Assembly: GCA_904419075.1 (NCBI GenBank)
Contig: CAJFQM010000005.1
Span: 62,001 to 126,000, forward strand
Length of the DNA: 64,000 nt
From: an uncultured Clostridia bacterium
GTDB lineage: Bacteria > Bacillota > Clostridia > Christensenellales > Borkfalkiaceae
Direction: 5' to 3'
How positions within the stretch are numbered: position 1 is the stretch's first letter; each line of letters opens with the position of its first letter. The position numbers were made by a program, and so were the translations under genes. The notes beneath the pieces were generated by a model, which did no database searches, was not told the DNA's origin, and worked only from the letters and a program-made list of their open reading frames with translations. Positions 21,933 through 37,446 of this stretch are shown one piece after another.

Positions 21933-21969
21933 CGCGTTCGCAACATAGGGAACCCTCAAAGGGATTCGG

Positions 21970-22150
21970 TAAATAGCGCTTCACGGACGGTGACAGTCAT
22001 GCGGGTATTCTCCCGTATGCCCAACGCGGAAGGAAGGCACCGCGTTTCGGCGGAGATACCCTTTCCAGTCCGCCGTATGCTCTTCGGCCGCAAAATCTTC
22101 CGTATTTTGCTTTACGGCGGAGTACTCTTGTTCTTCCGCTCCTCTATTTA
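21970..22150 (-). promoter_or_regulatory. lysine riboswitch (L box) controlling asd-dapA-dapB
   Basis: The closing helix P1 pairs TAAATAG (22150-22144) with CTATTTA (21976-21970). Between them, in order on the minus strand, are the family's conserved blocks: AGAGGAGC near the 5' end, AAGAGTA, GAAAGGG followed by CTCCGCCGAA, then GGGC and GCATGACTGTCA. The size (181 nt) is right. Position, five-way layout and downstream terminator all fit a transcriptional OFF switch. A covariance-model hit to the lysine family would settle it. Confidence 0.92.
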
Positions 22151-22158
22151 ACGGTTTT

Positions 22159-27943: not shown

Positions 27944-27974
27944 AAACCGTAACGTTTGAATGCGGGGATTTTTT
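27929..27974 (+). terminator. intrinsic terminator upstream of spoIVA, overlapping its promoter
   Basis: ATCCCCGCAT (27929-27938) pairs with ATGCGGGGAT (27960-27969), followed by TTTTT. The 21-base loop contains the expected spoIVA start site, so transcripts from the upstream genes are terminated while spoIVA mRNA, starting in the loop, cannot form the hairpin. Confidence 0.8.
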
Positions 27975-28019
27975 GCGGGGAAAACGCAGATAGCCGCAGA
28001 AACCACGTTGGAGGTCGGT

Positions 28020-29489
28020 ATGGAAAATTACAGCGTTTACGAAGATATTGCAAGCCGCACGAACGGCGATATTTACATCGGCGTGGTAGGCCCGGTGCGC
28101 ACGGGTAAATCTACCTTTATAAAGAGGTTTATGGAACAGCTCGTCATTCCTTCCGCCGACGAATCCCGCCGCGCGATAATGACGGACGAACTTCCCCAAT
28201 CGGCCGCCGGACGCACGGTCATGACGACGGAACCTAAATTTGTCCCCGCTCAGGCCGCGAGAATTTCCGTTCGGGAGGGAGCGGAAGCCTCCGTCCGTTT
28301 GGTGGACTGCGTGGGATTTGCCGTAGAGGGCGCGGGCGGATTTGAAGAGGACGGGGCGCCCAGACTCATCAAAACGCCTTGGAGCGAACAGGCCATGCCG
28401 TTTGAAAAAGCGGCTAAATTAGGCACGGAAAAAGTCATTCGGGAACATTCCACCATCGGAATCCTCATGACGACGGACGGGAGCATAACGGATATTCCGA
28501 GGTCAGCTTATATTTCCGCGGAAGAACATGCGGCCGCGGAACTCAAACAGATCGGGAAACCGTTTGTTATTCTTCTCAATTGCCGCCAGCCGGAAACGCA
28601 GGGGGATCTGCGTGCCTCTTTGGAGGAAAAATACGGGGTTCCCGTCATAGCCGTCAATGCCGAAGCGCTGGGAGAGGACGAGATCATGCAGATTATGCAG
28701 AAAGTTCTTTTCGAATTTCCCGTGGTCGGGATCGACGTCAGAATTCCCAAATGGATACAGTATCTGCCGGAAACCAGCAAGACCGTTTCGGCAATTTTGG
28801 CAAAACTCAAAAAAGTCGCGCCCTCATTGGTGCGCATGAGAGATTGTCTTTTGCTTGAAAATCTCTTCTGCGAGGAAGATAAATTTCTCAATCCCGACAA
28901 CATTTCCATGGAACTGGGCAAGGGACGGGCGGAAATCCGCATTGAAGCGAAAGAAGGGCTCTTTTACGAGGTACTCAGCGAAGAATGCGGGGAAAATATC
29001 TCCGACGATTTCTGCCTGATGCGCTATGTAAAATCTCTTGCGGAAGCGAAGCGCAATTACGACAAAATCAAGGAGGCGTTCGCGGACGCGGAAGAAAACG
29101 GCTACGGTATGGTGGCGCCCTGTGCGGAAGATATGACGCTCGAACAGCCGAAACTCATTCATAAAGGATCCGGATACGGGGTGAATTTCAAAGCGAGCGC
29201 CGCAAGCTATCATATATTGAAAGTAGAGGTGACGGGAGAGGTCAATCCCATTATCGGAACCCAGCAACAGGGCGAAGAATTTGTCAGAGACATTCTCGCC
29301 GATTACGAGGATCATACGGATAAAGTCTGGAATACAAATATTTTCGGCAAGACGCTTCGTGAACTCGTATCGGAAGAACTGTCGGAAAAAATAGACGCAA
29401 TGCCGCCCGATATCCGCAAGAAGATGCGCCGTACAATCACCCGGATCGTCAATGAAGGCAGGGGCGGGGTAATCTGTATTTTACTCTGA
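28020..29489 (+). CDS. spoIVA: stage IV sporulation protein A
   Basis: ATPase that polymerises on the forespore surface and forms the base of the spore coat. 489 residues, close to the B. subtilis protein (492). Walker A GPVRTGKST falls at residues 24-32, the same place as in Bacillus. VRLVDCVGFAVEGA is the Walker B/switch region, TTDGSITDIPR matches the sensor threonine region, and the end GRGGVICILL is the conserved hydrophobic C-terminus needed for anchoring. GGAGG lies 5 bases before the ATG. A sigma-E-like promoter precedes it. This is the strongest sign that the organism makes endospores. Confidence 0.97.
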   Translation: MENYSVYEDIASRTNGDIYIGVVGPVRTGKSTFIKRFMEQLVIPSADESRRAIMTDELPQSAAGRTVMTTEPKFVPAQAARISVREGAEASVRLVDCVGFAVEGAGGFEEDGAPRLIKTPWSEQAMPFEKAAKLGTEKVIREHSTIGILMTTDGSITDIPRSAYISAEEHAAAELKQIGKPFVILLNCRQPETQGDLRASLEEKYGVPVIAVNAEALGEDEIMQIMQKVLFEFPVVGIDVRIPKWIQYLPETSKTVSAILAKLKKVAPSLVRMRDCLLLENLFCEEDKFLNPDNISMELGKGRAEIRIEAKEGLFYEVLSEECGENISDDFCLMRYVKSLAEAKRNYDKIKEAFADAEENGYGMVAPCAEDMTLEQPKLIHKGSGYGVNFKASAASYHILKVEVTGEVNPIIGTQQQGEEFVRDILADYEDHTDKVWNTNIFGKTLRELVSEELSEKIDAMPPDIRKKMRRTITRIVNEGRGGVICILL

Positions 29490-29560: not shown

Positions 29561-29731
29561 ATGAGTAAATCATCAAAAAACAGAAAAGAAAAAGTACCTA
29601 AAATGACGGAAGAGCAGTATGCGGAATACGTCATGGCTCTGAAAGACGAAACGCCGGTAAAGGGCTATCGGGATCTCGCGGAGGGAAAGCATGATTCGCC
29701 TCACCTCGATGCCGAACGCCACGAAAGATAA
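29561..29731 (+). CDS. small hypothetical protein, 56 aa
   Basis: Very hydrophilic, with an N-terminal Ser/Lys/Arg cluster (MSKSSKNRKEKVPKM), a central helix TEEQYAEYVMALKDE and a His/Glu-rich tail. RBS GGGAG lies 10 bases before the ATG, and a terminator follows 24 bp after the stop. It is 71 bp downstream of spoIVA, so it may be transcribed with it during sporulation. Basic, soluble proteins of this size are common among spore-core or coat proteins, but nothing specific is recognised here and that idea is inference. Confidence 0.6.
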   Translation: MSKSSKNRKEKVPKMTEEQYAEYVMALKDETPVKGYRDLAEGKHDSPHLDAERHER

Positions 29732-29755: not shown

Positions 29756-29795
29756 AAGAGCGCATCGAAGGAAAACCTCGATTGCGCTCTTTTCC
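29756..29795 (+). terminator. intrinsic terminator after spoIVA and the 56-aa gene
   Basis: Stem 29756-29768 with 29778-29791 (one bulged T) followed by TTTT. Confidence 0.85.
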
Positions 29796-29910
29796 TCTTG
29801 CGGTACCATGGGCGGGAATAATAAAGGGAATTATTTTTCCGTTCAAACGCTCCGTTTGTAACTTTCTGGCAAATTTTTATGCTTTCTGACGAGATTTTTT
29901 CTCAAAACCC

Positions 29911-29939
29911 TTGACCGCGGGAATTAGATGTGCTATAAT
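29911..29939 (+). promoter_or_regulatory. strong sigma-A promoter, target unclear
   Basis: TTGACC (29911-29916), 17-bp spacer, TATAAT (29934-29939) with an extended -10 TGC. It is 330 bp upstream of the repeat-protein gene, so it gives either a very long leader or an RNA of its own. Confidence 0.85.
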
Positions 29940-30204: not shown

Positions 30205-30269
30205 TATAAACGTTAGTAGCTTATCCGATTTTTATATTCGCAAGCGAACAAGAAAAATTGAGGTGTAAT

Positions 30270-33200
30270 ATGACGGATTACGGTAACAACAATCAGAAAC
30301 AAGCTCCTTATGCTTATGCAAACGTACCGCCTCGGGGGAACGAAACGGCTCTGATGATAGAGGGGCTGTATAACGGTCTCACCTACGATTTGCAAAAGAT
30401 GAAAAAAGAGCTGATGAACGAGCTCAAATATACGGCTATGCAATCCAGCTCCGTATACCAGTCTATTCAGAAAGAGACTGCTTCCGCTACGGAGACGAAT
30501 GCACAGACCGCGCAGTCTATGGTTCGGGAACTGAAATACGGTTATCAGCAGAACCAAATGATTTATGAGTCTTTATCTGCGATTTTGACGGAAGACGTGC
30601 TCACCAAGCTGGATACGGTGGAAGGCAAAGTCGAACTTCTCGAACAAATCGATAAAGCTCTCGCGGAAATTAAGGAGAAGCTCGAAGAACTCGCCGCCCG
30701 TCCTGAACCCGATTATGAGGCTATCGCGGAGTCGATAAAGGAAAAAGTTATCGAAGCGGTTCCCGCGGCGGAAGAAATCGATTACGATAAGATTACGGAA
30801 TCCGTTTCCGAAAAGACGGAATCGAGTTTCGCTTCGCACAATAAAGAAATTCTCGATGCCGTAGCCGCGATTCCCGTTGCGGAAAATATCGACTATACGC
30901 GCATTGTGGAAGAGGTCAGCGACAAAGTCATGGAGAAATTCCGTGAAGCGCAGCCTAAGGCTGCGGCCGAAGAGACGGTTGCCGCCGCTGCGCCTGCGGA
31001 GATCGATTACGACAGGATTATTTACGGAGCCGCCGAAAAAGTCGTCGAGTCGTTGCCTTATCCCGATAAAGTAGATTATGCACGTATCGACGAAAGTTTT
31101 CTGAAAGCAGCCGATGGTGCCAAGGCTCCGGCGGTAGATGAGGAAGCTCTTGCCGCAAACGTTGCCGCGGCCGTATTGAAGGCCGTTTCCGAAATGGATA
31201 CGGATGCTTTGGCGGAAGCGGTGGCGGCAAAGGTTTCTATCCCTGCGGCGGAAGAAATCGACTACGATCGTTTATCCGATATGATTATCGCGAAAATGCC
31301 TGCTCCCGCGGAACCCGAACCTATCGATTACGACTTGCTCGCCGAAACGATTATTTCTAAAATGCCCGTTCCCGAGGCTGTCGATTACGATAAACTCGCC
31401 GATGCTGTCATTGCGAGAATGCCGGAGGCAATCGACTACGAAAAAATTTCGGAGACGGTGGCGGAAAAAGCACCCGCGCCCGAGGTTATCGACTATGCAG
31501 TTATGGCACAGAGCGTCGCCGAAAGGCTTCCCGTTGCGGAAGCGATCGACTATGATCGTTTGTCCGACGCCATAGTTGCGAAAATTCCCGCTCCCGCAGA
31601 ACCCGAGGCAATCGATTATGACAGGGTATATCAGGCAGCAAAAGCCGCAGAAGTTCTTCCCGATCCCGTCGATTACGACAGAATCGCGGAACTCGTGGAA
31701 ACAAAGATGCCCGATTTTGCCAATTTCGATATAGACGGTTTGGCAACGAAGATTGCGGAGAAAGTGGTTGTTCCCGATTACGATGTCCTTGTGGACGAGG
31801 AAGGTCGGAAAGAGATCGCACAAGGTGTTGTGGATTCTTTGGATTACGAACTTCTTTCCGAAAAAGTCGCAGAAAAGGTGGTCGTTCCCGTTGCGGAAGT
31901 TCCCGAGCCCGAAACAATCGATTACGAGCTCCTTTCCGATAAAGTGGCGGAAAAAGTGGTCGTTCCCGAAGTTACGCTTCCCGAACCCGAGGCAATCGAC
32001 TATGAAATGTTGTCTGACAAAGTCGCGGAAAAGGTTGTTCTGCCCGATGTGGAAATTCCGGAACCCGAGACCATCGACTATGAATTGCTTTCCGAAAAGC
32101 TGGCGGAGAAGATCGTCATTCCTCAGCCCGAAGTTCCTACATACGATGTGGTCGTCGATGCGGACGGCGCGAAATCCATTGCCGATTGCGTAGCCGCGGC
32201 TATCGATCTTGATTCTGTCTCCGAAAAAATTGCAGAAAAGGTTGTTGTTCCCGAAGTTGCGATTCCGGAACCCGAGGCAATCGATTATGAACTGCTTTCC
32301 GAAAAAGTAGCCGAAAAGATCGTCGTGCCCCAGCCTGAGAAGACGGAAATCGATTATGAGACTCTTTCCAAAGAAGTTGCGGAGAAAGTCGAGGTTCCCG
32401 CGTTGGAAGTTTTGGTGGACGAAGAGGGTGCGGGAAAAATAGCCGATGCCGTCGTTGAAAAGATTCGCACTTGTTGTCCTGCGGCGAAAGCGGAAGAAAG
32501 CGTTTGCGAAGTTGCGGAAGAAGAAAACGGTATAGTCGCGGAGGAGGCTCAGGAAGAAGCCGAATCCGAGACGGCGGAAGAAATAAAGCCTGTGGAGGAC
32601 GAGGCCGCCGAAGTTCCGCAAACGGATGAAATCTCTGAAGAATCGCTTTCCGCTCAGGAAGAAGCGGTCGAGGCTCAGTCTGTCGAAGAAGTTCCCGAGG
32701 AAAAGACGGAGGAAATGACGGATAAAGCCGAGGAAGAAGCGGCAGTTGCCGATGCGGCAACCGAAGCCGAGGCCGTCACCGAACCGGAGGAAGCAGAGTC
32801 CGAAAATGAAGCGGAATCCGAAGCGGATGAGGCTTCCGAAAAAGCCGAAGAACCGGTAGCGACGGAAATTGCCGTTGCCGATGCGGAGATCAATTCGTAT
32901 GACGAGGTAGAAAATAATCTTGTCGATGCGGACACGGGTTTAGTGATTCGCTTAAAGAGAAGTTTCACGGCAAAGATGAAACAGAGCGAGGAGAACGTAA
33001 AGGAATTTTACAGCAGAATCAAAAACGAATTGACCTCTTATAAGAGACTGAATTCCAATTTGAGCTGGCATGGCGACAGATTTAATTTCGGACGCGAGAC
33101 GGTGGCGAAGTTGAATATCTGCGGCAAGACGCTTTGCTTCTATCTTGCGCTTGATCCTACAAATCCCGATTATAAGACGACCGTTTACCATCAGAAAGAC

Positions 33201-33443
33201 GTAAGTTCTCAAAAGGCTTATGAAAATACGCCGTTTATGGTAAAAGTAAAGAGCGATGCAGGAGTCAAAAAGGCATTGCGTTTGGTCGGCTTCCTTGCGG
33301 AAAAGCTCGGTACGGATAAACGCGAGAATTTTGAACCCGTGGATTATGTTCAGGAATTTGAACATGAGTCTACTAAACAGCTGTTGGAGAAAGGACTCAT
33401 TAAAGTTACAAAAGAAAAGAAAGTTGTGTTAGATTTCAATTAA
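30270..33443 (+). CDS. large DY-repeat protein with conserved C-terminal domain, unknown function
   Basis: 1057 residues, no signal peptide or membrane segment, hence cytoplasmic. Residues ~1-145 are helical, probably coiled coil. Residues ~145-735 carry about twenty imperfect units built on [I/V]DY[D/E]xL[S/A]-x3-[A]EK-x-[V]-x-P, 20-27 residues long and most regular near DNA 31840-32340. Three units are replaced by a different block (VLVDEEG...IA..V). Residues ~740-875 are extremely Glu/Ala-rich. The last ~175 residues form a distinct compact domain (EFYSRIKNELTSYKRLNS, GKTLCFYLALDP) that I recall in uncharacterised clostridial proteins. The ATG has GAGGTG five bases before it. The protein is strongly acidic. 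It could be a scaffold; no function is claimed. Confidence 0.85.
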   Translation: MTDYGNNNQKQAPYAYANVPPRGNETALMIEGLYNGLTYDLQKMKKELMNELKYTAMQSSSVYQSIQKETASATETNAQTAQSMVRELKYGYQQNQMIYESLSAILTEDVLTKLDTVEGKVELLEQIDKALAEIKEKLEELAARPEPDYEAIAESIKEKVIEAVPAAEEIDYDKITESVSEKTESSFASHNKEILDAVAAIPVAENIDYTRIVEEVSDKVMEKFREAQPKAAAEETVAAAAPAEIDYDRIIYGAAEKVVESLPYPDKVDYARIDESFLKAADGAKAPAVDEEALAANVAAAVLKAVSEMDTDALAEAVAAKVSIPAAEEIDYDRLSDMIIAKMPAPAEPEPIDYDLLAETIISKMPVPEAVDYDKLADAVIARMPEAIDYEKISETVAEKAPAPEVIDYAVMAQSVAERLPVAEAIDYDRLSDAIVAKIPAPAEPEAIDYDRVYQAAKAAEVLPDPVDYDRIAELVETKMPDFANFDIDGLATKIAEKVVVPDYDVLVDEEGRKEIAQGVVDSLDYELLSEKVAEKVVVPVAEVPEPETIDYELLSDKVAEKVVVPEVTLPEPEAIDYEMLSDKVAEKVVLPDVEIPEPETIDYELLSEKLAEKIVIPQPEVPTYDVVVDADGAKSIADCVAAAIDLDSVSEKIAEKVVVPEVAIPEPEAIDYELLSEKVAEKIVVPQPEKTEIDYETLSKEVAEKVEVPALEVLVDEEGAGKIADAVVEKIRTCCPAAKAEESVCEVAEEENGIVAEEAQEEAESETAEEIKPVEDEAAEVPQTDEISEESLSAQEEAVEAQSVEEVPEEKTEEMTDKAEEEAAVADAATEAEAVTEPEEAESENEAESEADEASEKAEEPVATEIAVADAEINSYDEVENNLVDADTGLVIRLKRSFTAKMKQSEENVKEFYSRIKNELTSYKRLNSNLSWHGDRFNFGRETVAKLNICGKTLCFYLALDPTNPDYKTTVYHQKDVSSQKAYENTPFMVKVKSDAGVKKALRLVGFLAEKLGTDKRENFEPVDYVQEFEHESTKQLLEKGLIKVTKEKKVVLDFN
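30700..32470 (+). repeat. coding tandem repeats, DY units
   Basis: Imperfect in-frame repeats of about 60-80 bp. Units near 31915-32110 are almost identical in protein (26 residues each) but differ at silent sites, suggesting selection on the protein rather than recent duplication. The earlier units are more degenerate and shorter. Confidence 0.85.
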
Positions 33444-33559: not shown

Positions 33560-35557
33560 GTGGACATTAAAGAAAAAGACAGAACTCCGAGAAAGCGTCC
33601 GTCGGCCGAAAAGACCGACGGCGGTTCGGGGAGCGAAACGAAGAGGCGGTTCGCAAAGAACAGAACCAATATCCGTTCCGCGGGAAGCGGGGCGGGTACT
33701 TCCATGCAGGCAACTTCCTTGCCGAGACGGCGAGAGAATACGACGGACAAAGAATCGTCGGTGACAGCTCGGAGACAAGCGTCCGTAAAAAAGACTTTTT
33801 ACAATATTCCGCGCGATGCCGCGATGCTTCGTAAGCCTGCTTTTGAAAATTCAGAGGAGTTTCCCGTTTTGGCAGAAAAAAGAGGCCGCGGACTAAAAAA
33901 GAAGAGAGCGGTCAAAATTCTTTTTCTCGGCGGCGTAGGGGAAATCGGGAAAAACATGACGGCCATAGAATATGGCGGAGATATCGTCATTATCGACGCG
34001 GGGCTTACTTTTCCCAATAACGAGGATATGCCGGGTATCGATCTCGTGGTTCCCGACATTACCTATCTCGTTCAGAATAAAGACAAAGTAAAGGGAATTC
34101 TTTTAACGCACGGTCATGAAGATCATATCGGCGGCATTCCTTATCTTTTGAAAGAACTCAATCCCGGAACGCCCGTCTACGGCACAAAACTGACGTTGAT
34201 GCTTGCGGACAATAAAATTCAGGAGCATCGTATTCAGAATGTCACCGAACGGGTAGTGCAGCCGGGGGACAGGATTAAATTAGGCGTTTTTGAAGTAGAA
34301 TTCATCAATGTCAATCATTCTATTTCCGGCGCGGTCGCTTTGGCTATCCGCACGCCTTGCGGACTTATTTATCACAGCGGAGATTTCAAAATCGATTTGA
34401 CCCCGGTCGCGGGAAAACCTATCGACCTCGAAAGAATTTCCGAGCTCGGACGGGAGGGAGTGCTTCTCTATATGGGGGAATCGACGAATATCGAACGTCC
34501 CGGCTATACGATGAGCGAAACCGTCGTGGGAACGACGCTCGACCATCTCTTTTCCGAAAATATGAACCGCAGACTGATTATAGCGACGTTTGCTTCCAAC
34601 GTGCATCGTTTGCAGCAAATTATCGATCTGGCCGTAAAGTATCGCCGTAAAGTGGCTCTTTCGGGACGGAGCATGTTCAAGGTCGTGGATGCCGCGGTAA
34701 AGATCGGCGAACTGAAAATCCCCGAAGGGGTTCTTATCGATATCGAAAAGAATAAAAACCTGTTCGACGGCGAGCTCGTCATCGTTTCCACGGGTACGCA
34801 GGGCGAGCCGATGAGCGCGCTTACCCGCATGGCTTCGGGAGATTTCAATAAAGTGACGATCGGCAATAACGATACGATCATTATTTCCGCCACGCCTATT
34901 CCGGGGAACGAGAAAATGGTATATCGCGTCATCAATAACCTTTATAAAAAGGGTGCCAACGTCATTTACGAAAGTCTCGAAAAAATTCATGTTTCGGGTC
35001 ACGCCTGTCAGGAAGAACACAAAATTTTGCATAATTTGCTCAATCCGAAATTTTTTATTCCCGTACACGGAGAATACAGACACTTGAAGCGCCATGCTCT
35101 GTTGGCGCAGGAATTGGGGATGCCGGAACGGAACATTCTCATTACGGAAATCGGAAATTGCGTAGAATTGACGGAAGACACGATAAAATTGGGCGAGAAT
35201 TTCCCCGCGGGAACCCGTTTGATCGACGGAGAAGGATTCGAGGACTACGGAACCAGCGAGGTGATGAAGGATCGTCTGAGAATGTCGGCCGAAGGTATTT
35301 TCATGGTCACTTTGGCTGTGACGGGAAACTACGTCATCAACGACCCGATTATCGAAAGCCGCGGCTACGTCTTTGCGGGGAACAGGGATTCTGACAAGGA
35401 AATAAAATCCGTCGTTCAGAAAGCGGTTGAGCAATACGATTACGAAAACGGAACCAAGGAAGAACTTGCCGCCACGGTAAAAAAGGCCTTAAAAAATTAT
35501 ATTTTCAAAAAGACCAAACAATCTCCGTTGATTGTTCCCGTCATTTTTGAGGTGTAA
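33560..35557 (+). CDS. rnj: ribonuclease J with long basic N-terminal extension
   Basis: Metallo-beta-lactamase-fold 5'-3' exoribonuclease and endonuclease for mRNA decay and rRNA maturation. 665 residues versus ~555 in B. subtilis RNase J1. The core starts near residue 117 (VKILFLGGVGEIGKN); the zinc motif HGHEDHIGG begins at residue 184, with GHACQEEH and the C-terminal HGEYRHLK following. The first ~115 residues are Lys/Arg/Ser/Thr-rich, apparently disordered and without homology I recognise. The start codon is GTG with AAGGAG 13 bases upstream, a loose spacing; a later start inside the extension is possible. Confidence 0.93.
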   Translation: MDIKEKDRTPRKRPSAEKTDGGSGSETKRRFAKNRTNIRSAGSGAGTSMQATSLPRRRENTTDKESSVTARRQASVKKTFYNIPRDAAMLRKPAFENSEEFPVLAEKRGRGLKKKRAVKILFLGGVGEIGKNMTAIEYGGDIVIIDAGLTFPNNEDMPGIDLVVPDITYLVQNKDKVKGILLTHGHEDHIGGIPYLLKELNPGTPVYGTKLTLMLADNKIQEHRIQNVTERVVQPGDRIKLGVFEVEFINVNHSISGAVALAIRTPCGLIYHSGDFKIDLTPVAGKPIDLERISELGREGVLLYMGESTNIERPGYTMSETVVGTTLDHLFSENMNRRLIIATFASNVHRLQQIIDLAVKYRRKVALSGRSMFKVVDAAVKIGELKIPEGVLIDIEKNKNLFDGELVIVSTGTQGEPMSALTRMASGDFNKVTIGNNDTIIISATPIPGNEKMVYRVINNLYKKGANVIYESLEKIHVSGHACQEEHKILHNLLNPKFFIPVHGEYRHLKRHALLAQELGMPERNILITEIGNCVELTEDTIKLGENFPAGTRLIDGEGFEDYGTSEVMKDRLRMSAEGIFMVTLAVTGNYVINDPIIESRGYVFAGNRDSDKEIKSVVQKAVEQYDYENGTKEELAATVKKALKNYIFKKTKQSPLIVPVIFEV

Positions 35558-35587: not shown

Positions 35588-36232
35588 ATGAAATATGCGT
35601 CATCTCTTTTAAAACTGAATATCGACGAACGGATAAGATGTCTCCGCAAGGAGGCTCTTTCCCGCGGAATTCCCGTCGCGGAGGACGAAACTTTAAATTA
35701 TCTTTTGCTAATGATTTCCGCAGTTCGTCCGAAGCGTATTCTCGAAATCGGAACGGCGGTGGGGCTTTCTTCGGCGGCGATGCTGCTGCAATGTCCGACT
35801 GCGAAAGTGGTTACGATTGAAGTGGAAGAGGAGCGCTATCTCGAAGCGAAGAAAAATTTTGAGAATTTGGGACTTTCCGAACGCGCCACCTGTTATCTCG
35901 GCGACGCAGGGGAAATCCTTACCATGATGGACGGCTGTTTCGATTTTATATTTTTAGACGGTCCCAAAGCGCAGTATGAGAAGTATTTGTTCGATTTGAA
36001 ACGATTAATGCATAACGGCAGCGTGCTCTTTGCCGACGATGTTCTTCTATACGGCTGGGTGAGCGGAGAAGAACCTACTCCCTTAAAAAGACGGTCCATC
36101 GTGGAAAAAATTCGCGGATACCTTTCCGCCGTTTCTGCGGATAAGGATTTTATCACATCCGTATTGAATATCGGCGACGGAGTAGCGGTATCGGTTTTGA
36201 CGAAGGAAGACAGTAAAAAGGACGGCGAATGA
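35588..36232 (+). CDS. trmR: tRNA 5-hydroxyuridine methyltransferase TrmR-like (YrrM)
   Basis: O-methyltransferase fold, 214 residues. The SAM motif ILEIGTAVGLSSAAML (~50-65), VVTIEVEEERYLEAKKN, and the metal-binding FIFLDGPKAQY (~119-129) with FADDVLLYGWV are those of the COMT-like family. In B. subtilis the yrrM-yrrN-yrrO operon pairs this enzyme with U32 proteins: TrhP-type proteins hydroxylate wobble U34 and TrmR methylates it to mo5U. The same pairing occurs here (the next gene overlaps by 4 bp), which is the main reason for this call over a generic O-methyltransferase. No good RBS is evident. Confidence 0.82.
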   Translation: MKYASSLLKLNIDERIRCLRKEALSRGIPVAEDETLNYLLLMISAVRPKRILEIGTAVGLSSAAMLLQCPTAKVVTIEVEEERYLEAKKNFENLGLSERATCYLGDAGEILTMMDGCFDFIFLDGPKAQYEKYLFDLKRLMHNGSVLFADDVLLYGWVSGEEPTPLKRRSIVEKIRGYLSAVSADKDFITSVLNIGDGVAVSVLTKEDSKKDGE

Positions 36233-37446
36233 AAACGGAACTTCTGGCTCCCGCGGGAAGCTATTCAAAATTGGAAACGGCTCTGCATTTTGGTGCGGAT
36301 GCCGTCTATATCGGAGGAAAGGCGTTCTCTTTAAGGACCTTTGCGGATAATTTTACGGAGAAGGAGCTTTGCTCGGCCGTTGATTTGGCGCACCGATACG
36401 GAAAAAAGATTTACGTTGCGGCAAACGTATTTGCCCGCAACGGGGATTTTGAAAATCTGAAAGACTATTTTCGATTTCTGAAAGATATCGGAACGGATGC
36501 CGCGATTGTCAGCGATCCCGGCGTAATTTATGTCGCGAAAGAGTCGGCGCCCGAACTCCCGCTTCACCTTTCCACGCAGGCGAATACCGTCAATAAATAT
36601 GCCGTTCGTTTTTGGAAAGAACAGGGGATTTCCCGCATTATCCTCGCTCGGGAACTTTCCGTTTCCGAAATTTCGGAAATTCGGGATTTGGTCCCCGATA
36701 TTCAGTTGGAGGCTTTCGTACACGGCGCGATGTGTATATCATATAGCGGCAGATGCCTCTTGTCCGACTATTTGGACGGAAGGTCTTCCAATCGCGGCGC
36801 CTGCGTGCAGGCCTGTCGCTGGAAATACGAAATCCGGGCCTTGAATCCATCCGACGGCGAAACGGGCTGGCTGCCTGTCGAAGAGGACGAAAAAGGGACG
36901 TATATTCTCAACAGTAAGGATTTGAATATGCTTTTGAGACTTTCCGAGCTGGAACGAGCGGGAGTGAATTCCTTCAAAATCGAAGGCCGAATGAAGAGTG
37001 AATATTATTTGGCCACGGTTATCAACGCTTATCGGCGCGCGTTGGATTCGGGTGCGTCACGGGAGATCGAACAGGAACTTTGCAACGTGGCGCATAGAGA
37101 TTATACACAGGCTTACGCTTCCGGTAAGAATTCTTTTACCGTCGGTTATACCAACAGTCAGACCAAAGGCGATTATACGTATATCGCAAATGTCATAGAT
37201 TCCGAAAACGGATTTGTGATCGCTGAAATGCGCAATCGCTTTCGGGCGGGAGATGTTCTCGAAGTTCTTTCTCCCGACGGGAATTTCAAGAAAACTTTCG
37301 TCGCGGAAAATATTTTCGATTCTTCGGGGCAAAAGACGGACGACGCAAAGCTCGTTCGGGAATTTTACCGAATCGAATGTCCTTTCGCGTTGAAAAAAGG
37401 AGACTTATTGAGGCGGAAAAATTCCGCGGAGGAGTCGAAAAAATAG
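36229..37446 (+). CDS. trhP: peptidase U32 family protein, TrhP-like tRNA hydroxylation protein
   Basis: 405 residues with the U32 signature: LLAPAGSYSKLETALHFGAD (residues ~3-22), AVYIGGKAFSLR, and the cysteine cluster in MCISYSGRCLLSDYL and RGACVQACRWKY (~170-200), which binds an iron-sulfur cluster in relatives. FKIEGRMKSEYYLATVINAYR is also typical. Overlap with the TrmR-like gene supports a role in 5-hydroxyuridine formation at tRNA position 34, using prephenate-derived chemistry in known systems. Collagenase-type annotations for this family are historical. Only one U32 copy is here, against two in B. subtilis. Confidence 0.85.
   Translation: MKTELLAPAGSYSKLETALHFGADAVYIGGKAFSLRTFADNFTEKELCSAVDLAHRYGKKIYVAANVFARNGDFENLKDYFRFLKDIGTDAAIVSDPGVIYVAKESAPELPLHLSTQANTVNKYAVRFWKEQGISRIILARELSVSEISEIRDLVPDIQLEAFVHGAMCISYSGRCLLSDYLDGRSSNRGACVQACRWKYEIRALNPSDGETGWLPVEEDEKGTYILNSKDLNMLLRLSELERAGVNSFKIEGRMKSEYYLATVINAYRRALDSGASREIEQELCNVAHRDYTQAYASGKNSFTVGYTNSQTKGDYTYIANVIDSENGFVIAEMRNRFRAGDVLEVLSPDGNFKKTFVAENIFDSSGQKTDDAKLVREFYRIECPFALKKGDLLRRKNSAEESKK

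Follow-up and report, generated by a model that had tools for sequence, protein, structure and literature searches.

A DY-repeat protein encoded directly upstream of RNase J in an uncultured Clostridia bacterium is a candidate acidic scaffold

We analysed a 64,000-nucleotide stretch of DNA from an uncultured Clostridia bacterium (the window) and describe a gene for a 1057-residue DY-repeat protein (30270..33443, + strand) that sits immediately 5' of RNase J in genera g1, g26, and g28 and ends in a C-terminal domain (CTD) that sequence and structure comparisons place as a divergent relative of DUF5655. Our leading and tentative reading, which we rate at somewhat below an even chance, is that the protein may be a non-catalytic, oligomeric, acidic scaffold organising the RNase J made together with it. 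The initial annotation, made from the letters of the window, had called this gene the window's best candidate for undescribed biology, a judgement that we consider fair. No whole-protein match to a characterised family appeared: searches returned only a sub-threshold Importin_rep_5 match in Pfam, sub-threshold matches in NCBIfam, and a single weak match in PHROGs (E 0.0014), and no paper on the protein or its CTD was recognised in the open-access literature.

The gene begins with an ATG at 30270, 3' of a GAGG at 30260-30263, and an alternative program-called TTG start at 30258 overlaps this GAGG site. Upstream, at 29911..29939 (+), TTGACC-17-TATAAT with a TG before the -10 element (11/12 matches plus TG) matches a promoter of the vegetative, sigma-70 type. 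Of the genus loci, 42 have 120 nt or more of DNA upstream of the DY gene, and 41 of these carry TTGACN-17/18-TGnTATAAT there (37 of the 41 in the TTGACC form); the pattern was found at none of 15 linked loci in other genera. The window's genome holds 56 sites of this kind with spacing 17, with TTGACC only at the DY site. Between this promoter and the upstream neighbour spoIVA (27960..29489, +; Pfam SpoIVA domains) lies a small ORF of 56 aa (29561-29731), 3' of which a stem-loop with a T run was seen by eye at about 29765-29800; a stem-loop scan with loops of 3-8 did not list this structure. Elsewhere in the window, a Lysine riboswitch was found at 21966-22154 (-; Rfam, 75.7 bits). High expression of the DY gene was considered and set aside, its codon adaptation being only mildly high (6th, tied with 5th, among 39 chosen window genes).

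The protein opens with a long helix predicted by AlphaFold2, a probable coiled coil (residues 24-142; 30339..30695, +), in which Y34, E87, and Q94 are invariant across 40 sequences, in keeping with the helical N-terminal region noted at the outset. The repeat region (residues 147-760; 30708..32549, +) has 20 DY-type cores, all within residues 147-694, and the protein has 14 matches to the strict pattern [IV]DY[DE]x[LIV] (mean 0.02 and maximum 2 in 2000 shuffles). Neighbouring cores are 17-26 residues apart in 14 of 19 cases, and a Pro follows 16 of the 20 cores at a distance of 11-18 residues, bearing out the initial description of about twenty DY-centred units ending in a Pro. That description also had units replaced by VDEEG blocks at fairly regular intervals; by pattern count, the blocks are VDEEG at residue 508 (31791..31805, +), VDADG at residue 629 (32154..32168, +), and VDEEG at residue 716 (32415..32429, +), and the spacing is not regular because the two intervals are 121 and 87, while orthologues carry 0 to 4 blocks of this type under a looser pattern. 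The acidic linker (residues 761-880; 32550..32909, +; by composition) is as extreme as described, residues 760-880 having a net charge of -44 (48 D/E vs 4 K/R), and residues 150-760 reach -93; the CTD carries +6. No membrane segment was found in the protein, the highest 19-residue hydropathy mean being 1.24. DY-type repeats are present also in relatives from other genera, and the cores per collected protein range from 0 to 23 by pattern, with some proteins truncated and one apparently complete relative (L046) having none.

Each repeat unit had been taken for a short amphipathic helix, and two lines of evidence agree with this. The helices after the DY cores (18 of 20 tested) have a mean hydrophobic moment of 0.427 vs 0.308 when shuffled, with only 1 of 2000 shuffles as high, and AlphaFold2, run on residues 1-748 with 39 relatives, predicted the 119-residue helix at 24-142 followed by 26 shorter helices (8-28 residues), those of the DY units mostly beginning at the Tyr. 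Mean pLDDT was 64.2 and pTM 0.24; block means were about 60-78 across much of residues 240-530 and mostly 35-51 for the near-identical units at 540-630, the least certain part. Because of the pTM of 0.24, packing between units is not predicted, and the repeats are best described as a predicted beaded chain of separate short helices on flexible linkers. Of the original alternatives "flexible or rod-like," the former thus agrees with the predicted linkers, and the latter is unsupported, given the pLDDT blocks and pTM.

The CTD (residues 881-1057; 32910..33440, +) was modelled by AlphaFold2 as a compact domain, as had been expected (177 residues, 73 sequences, pLDDT 91.8, pTM 0.85). Neither Pfam nor NCBIfam names it: the window CTD matched no Pfam family, and 30 CTD members together matched 17 families at E<=1, DUF5655 in one member only (E 0.074) and DUF1801 in none. 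A CTD profile found no match among PDB sequences. By Foldseek, the leading solved structures are those of YdhG (the frataxin-like DUF1801), YjbR, and DUF419, at weak E-values, the best matches being 2oc6 (E 0.018, probability 0.96, TM 0.32-0.43) and 2fki (E 0.061; TM-scores of the two 0.32-0.52), and among the BFVD viral models a DUF5655 protein ranks first (probability 1.00, E 1.4e-3, model against model; query TM 0.50, 3.0 A over 108 columns). In a class-wide sample of 391 genomes, the CTD profile found matches outside the order in three genomes (E 8e-10 to 6e-9), all three being DUF5655 proteins above the Pfam cut-off, and hhalign aligned the CTD with DUF5655 over 110 columns (probability 98.0, E 2.1e-13). 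These DUF5655 proteins and the hhalign result therefore indicate that the CTD is, on sequence and model comparison, a divergent DUF5655 relative with a possibly YdhG/YjbR-like fold, so the domain is unnamed, as first annotated, but not an orphan. It differs from DUF5655 (PF18899) in falling below the Pfam gathering cut-off, in about 50 further C-terminal residues, and in sitting on scaffolds and membrane proteins, whereas the three DUF5655 proteins from the class-wide sample look soluble and are about 300 residues long, one with a sub-threshold NucS_C match. No paper naming DUF5655 was found in the open-access literature. An IMG/VR viral contig also carries a CTD relative of 42% identity (L271:2001-2438).

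A gene-neighbourhood survey, suggested at the outset, found the linkage to RNase J conserved in three genera. The DY gene of the window and of its genus is followed by RNase J (33560..35557, +; Pfam RNase_J_b_CASP and RNase_J_C), an O-methyltransferase (35588..36232, +; Pfam Methyltransf_3), a U32 protein (36229..37446, +; Pfam Peptidase_U32), and usually an asparaginase. From Pfam family and gene order, the O-methyltransferase is probably TrmR-like and the U32 protein probably TrhP-like, TrhP being a tRNA hydroxylation factor (PMC6599085, in excerpt). The first four genes keep this order in g26 and g28, where the asparaginase is not in view. Both the O-methyltransferase and the U32 gene lie 3' of RNase J in 23 of the 24 loci of one set, the remaining locus (L071) stopping before them, and in all 15 loci of a second set. 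The CTD gene lies 5' of RNase J in 63/63 linked loci, with a gap of 47-426 nt in 62 of them, counts that are not independent because the loci are related. From this arrangement, we infer a DY-RNase J operon. The linkage was absent from the genomes read in g27, g29, and g31 of the same family (G078, G323, G332, and G386) and from four regions read outside the family, and in six genomes of other families (G041, G043, G045, G051, G054, and G059) RNase J and the CTD lie on different contigs. In G332, RNase J is preceded by a gene for a 617-residue coiled-coil-looking protein in which the CTD was undetected (L265:2562-4415) and whose terminal unit resembles a DY repeat by eye, a possible replacement or relative. 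RNase Y is encoded in 51 of 61 genomes, the window's included, so no scaffold is obviously missing, and the idea that the DY protein replaces RNase Y as a scaffold was rejected.

The neighbouring RNase J carries a basic N-terminal extension (33560..33901, +) of 114 aa with a net charge of +15 and the motif GAGTSM. In the 61 of 63 linked loci where it was measurable, the extension always has 49 aa or more and a net charge of +10 or more, with lengths that may be overstated since the first in-frame start codon was taken; 3 of 13 unlinked genomes measured (G078, G054, and G041) also reach both limits. Within the genus, 41 of the 44 extensions contain GT[ASPT][FMV], against a mean of 0.75 and no more than 5 when shuffled; a stricter first pattern matched 31 of 45 and missed the window's GAGTSM. 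Outside the genus, 7 of 17 extensions (L119, L121, L172, L173, L177, L188, and L189) share another motif, A[IV]E[LF]AILNGI. On the other side, the part of the linked DY proteins that precedes the CTD is acidic in all 60 that exceed 400 aa (net charge -244 to -23, median -72.5). A simple co-scaling of the two charges was tried and rejected, the Spearman correlation of +0.31 (59 loci) having the opposite sign.

Beyond these loci, the CTD is a mobile domain. The window CTD as query found a match in 35 of 37 genus genomes (none in G019 and G032), and the CTD profile matched 197 of 396 order genomes in 50 of 142 genera, single genomes having as many as nine matches. No other CTD protein was found in the window's genome at E<=1e-5; L002, considered as a second, was set aside as weak (E 0.083, then 0.0066) and extracellular-looking by eye. 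We collected 132 distinct CTD proteins, their loci picked by similarity rather than as a random sample, 63 at RNase J-linked loci and 69 not linked, with topology judged by eye for a few from hydropathy and flanking charges. All 63 linked proteins have a single CTD, and a hydrophobic segment was scored in 6 of them at no consistent position; membrane segments are predicted in 53 of the 69 non-linked proteins, and 21 of the 69 have two or three CTDs. The initial suggestion of a membrane partner thus gains support, the CTD being often on predicted membrane proteins elsewhere.

Domain fusions were scanned in 60 non-linked CTD proteins (9 of the 69 were omitted for length or truncation). The uL15/L18e family PF00828 occurs in 14 of the 60. 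Seven uL15-like cases viewed in detail (L064, which is outside the 60, L125, L126, L127, L129, L130, and L165) are above the PF00828 cut-off with the uL15-like domain behind the CTD, five of the seven have a predicted membrane segment, and a separate uL15 gene of ordinary size was present in all ten genomes examined. Five collected CTD membrane proteins (L145, L148, L151, L159, and L190) end in a segment of 71-99 residues resembling the N-terminal domain of RicT (PSP1), which, searched against 161 ORFs, matched one of four RicT ORFs (25 bits, E 9e-8) and which hhalign compared with all four at 92.7%. At least 41 of the 60 have neither domain. Other partners are Big_3 (9), DUF2357 (2), and EAL (1), along with sub-threshold signal-peptidase matches; the EAL fusion (L067:1602-3362) has a Pfam E of 2e-20. 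TCTP matches in 3 of 60 (L058, L157, and L168; 28.7-33.7 vs a cut-off of 24.3 bits) were judged spurious because they span only 21-41 residues, the single stretches all fall short by themselves, and better Big_3 matches overlap in L058 and L168.

How might these parts work together? In the scaffold reading, the long N-terminal helix would oligomerise the DY protein, its predicted helices on acidic flexible linkers would form a multivalent chain, and the basic extension of RNase J would bind either this chain or the CTD by means of its charge and a GT[ASP][FM] motif. The CTD, with its predicted fold, would then attach the assembly to RNA, to ribosomes, or to some other shared partner, such that RNase J would be concentrated or placed. 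Linkage, promoter, the acidic and basic charges, the motif, and the uL15-like and RicT-N-like fusions count for this reading, and a scaffold with a partner-binding CTD, as first annotated, is consistent with our findings; the earlier hint of an RNA partner, drawn from RNase J, likewise gains from the three-genus linkage, the basic extension, and the fusions. The scaffold reading is weakened because the charges do not co-scale, basic extensions occur unlinked, RNase Y is present, linkage is patchy, at least 41 of 60 CTD proteins have neither fusion, spoIVA adjoins 16 of 63 loci, and the promoter was not found at 15 linked loci of other genera. As with the RNase E tail, a flexible multivalent region tied to an RNase, and with RNase Y and the H. 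pylori RNase J-RhpA system, the DY protein would bring a (here predicted) flexible multivalent region to an RNase; unlike them, it is a separate, apparently non-catalytic, acidic gene product whose proposed tie to the RNase comes from gene order and charge. In H. pylori, the RNase J degradosome is at the membrane (PMC7492731, in excerpt), and in B. subtilis RicT and RNase Y form a stable complex (PMC10470536, in excerpt). A bolder and doubtful extension is an order-wide RNA-turnover system in which DUF5655-like docking domains sit on membrane anchors, some fused to uL15 or RicT, and a family-specific DY scaffold phase-separates and captures RNase J through the basic tail and GT[ASP][FM].

Several other readings draw on the same observations. 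The DY protein and the CTD-bearing membrane proteins may, through this domain, share one cytosolic partner, the DY protein being a multivalent organiser at the cell envelope and RNase J incidental; the predicted membrane segments, the multiple CTDs, and Big_3 in 9 of 60 fit this, but it leaves the RNase J neighbourhood and the uL15-like and RicT-N-like fusions unexplained, and the window's genome has this single CTD protein at E<=1e-5, so we hold it unlikely. A spore-coat or forespore scaffold acting with SpoIVA is less probable again, and less likely than the RNase J scaffold. SpoVID/SipL-type coat scaffolds are acidic proteins encoded near spoIVA that have a LysM domain, and the DY protein resembles them in being acidic and, in some loci, encoded near spoIVA. 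Those neighbours speak for this role: spoIVA shares the retrieved sequence with 16 of the 63 linked genes, many stretches being cut short, is close upstream by coordinates also in G014, G015, and G028, occurs in 329 of 396 order genomes, and in G218 adjoins a CTD-uL15 protein (L180, L126). However, no LysM match was found in the DY protein (Pfam, E<=0.01), the promoter is of sigma-70 type, and other genus genomes have spoIVA on a separate contig with RNase J still adjoining. The role is further weakened because four CTD-positive family genomes (G260, G313, G332, and G341; 96-97% complete) have no spoIVA match, one of which (G260, L175, 96% complete) has the gene beside RNase J, assembly gaps being possible.

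About as improbable as the coat role is a tether in which the CTD binds ribosomes or RNA, the protein parks ribosomes, and RNase J is merely co-regulated. The uL15-like and RicT-N-like fusions agree with it, as do the mildly basic CTDs (median net +4 linked, +7 others) and the report that the RicT complex and RNase Y start rRNA decay of mature ribosomes in B. subtilis (PMC13230545, in excerpt), but an RNA-binding signature was not identified in the CTD, which has no PDB sequence match, and none of the open-access papers searched names DUF5655. Least probable, and by our estimate very improbable, is that the protein is acidic and of low complexity, weakly selected and for the most part free of constraint, and that only the CTD matters. 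The variable number of DY cores, the low-confidence linkers, and the units at 540-630 would suit such a protein, yet three features speak against it: repeat helices amphipathic beyond shuffles, repeats that are found again in other genera, and invariant residues in the N-terminal helix.

Taken together, roughly every second genome sampled from the order has the CTD, with up to nine matches each, and yet the domain is nameless in Pfam and NCBIfam. Its fusions and the RNase J neighbourhood in three genera offer a testable guess on the role of acidic repeat scaffolds, and, if the RNase J scaffold reading is true, the DY protein would represent a separate-gene way of organising an RNase J-based degradosome.
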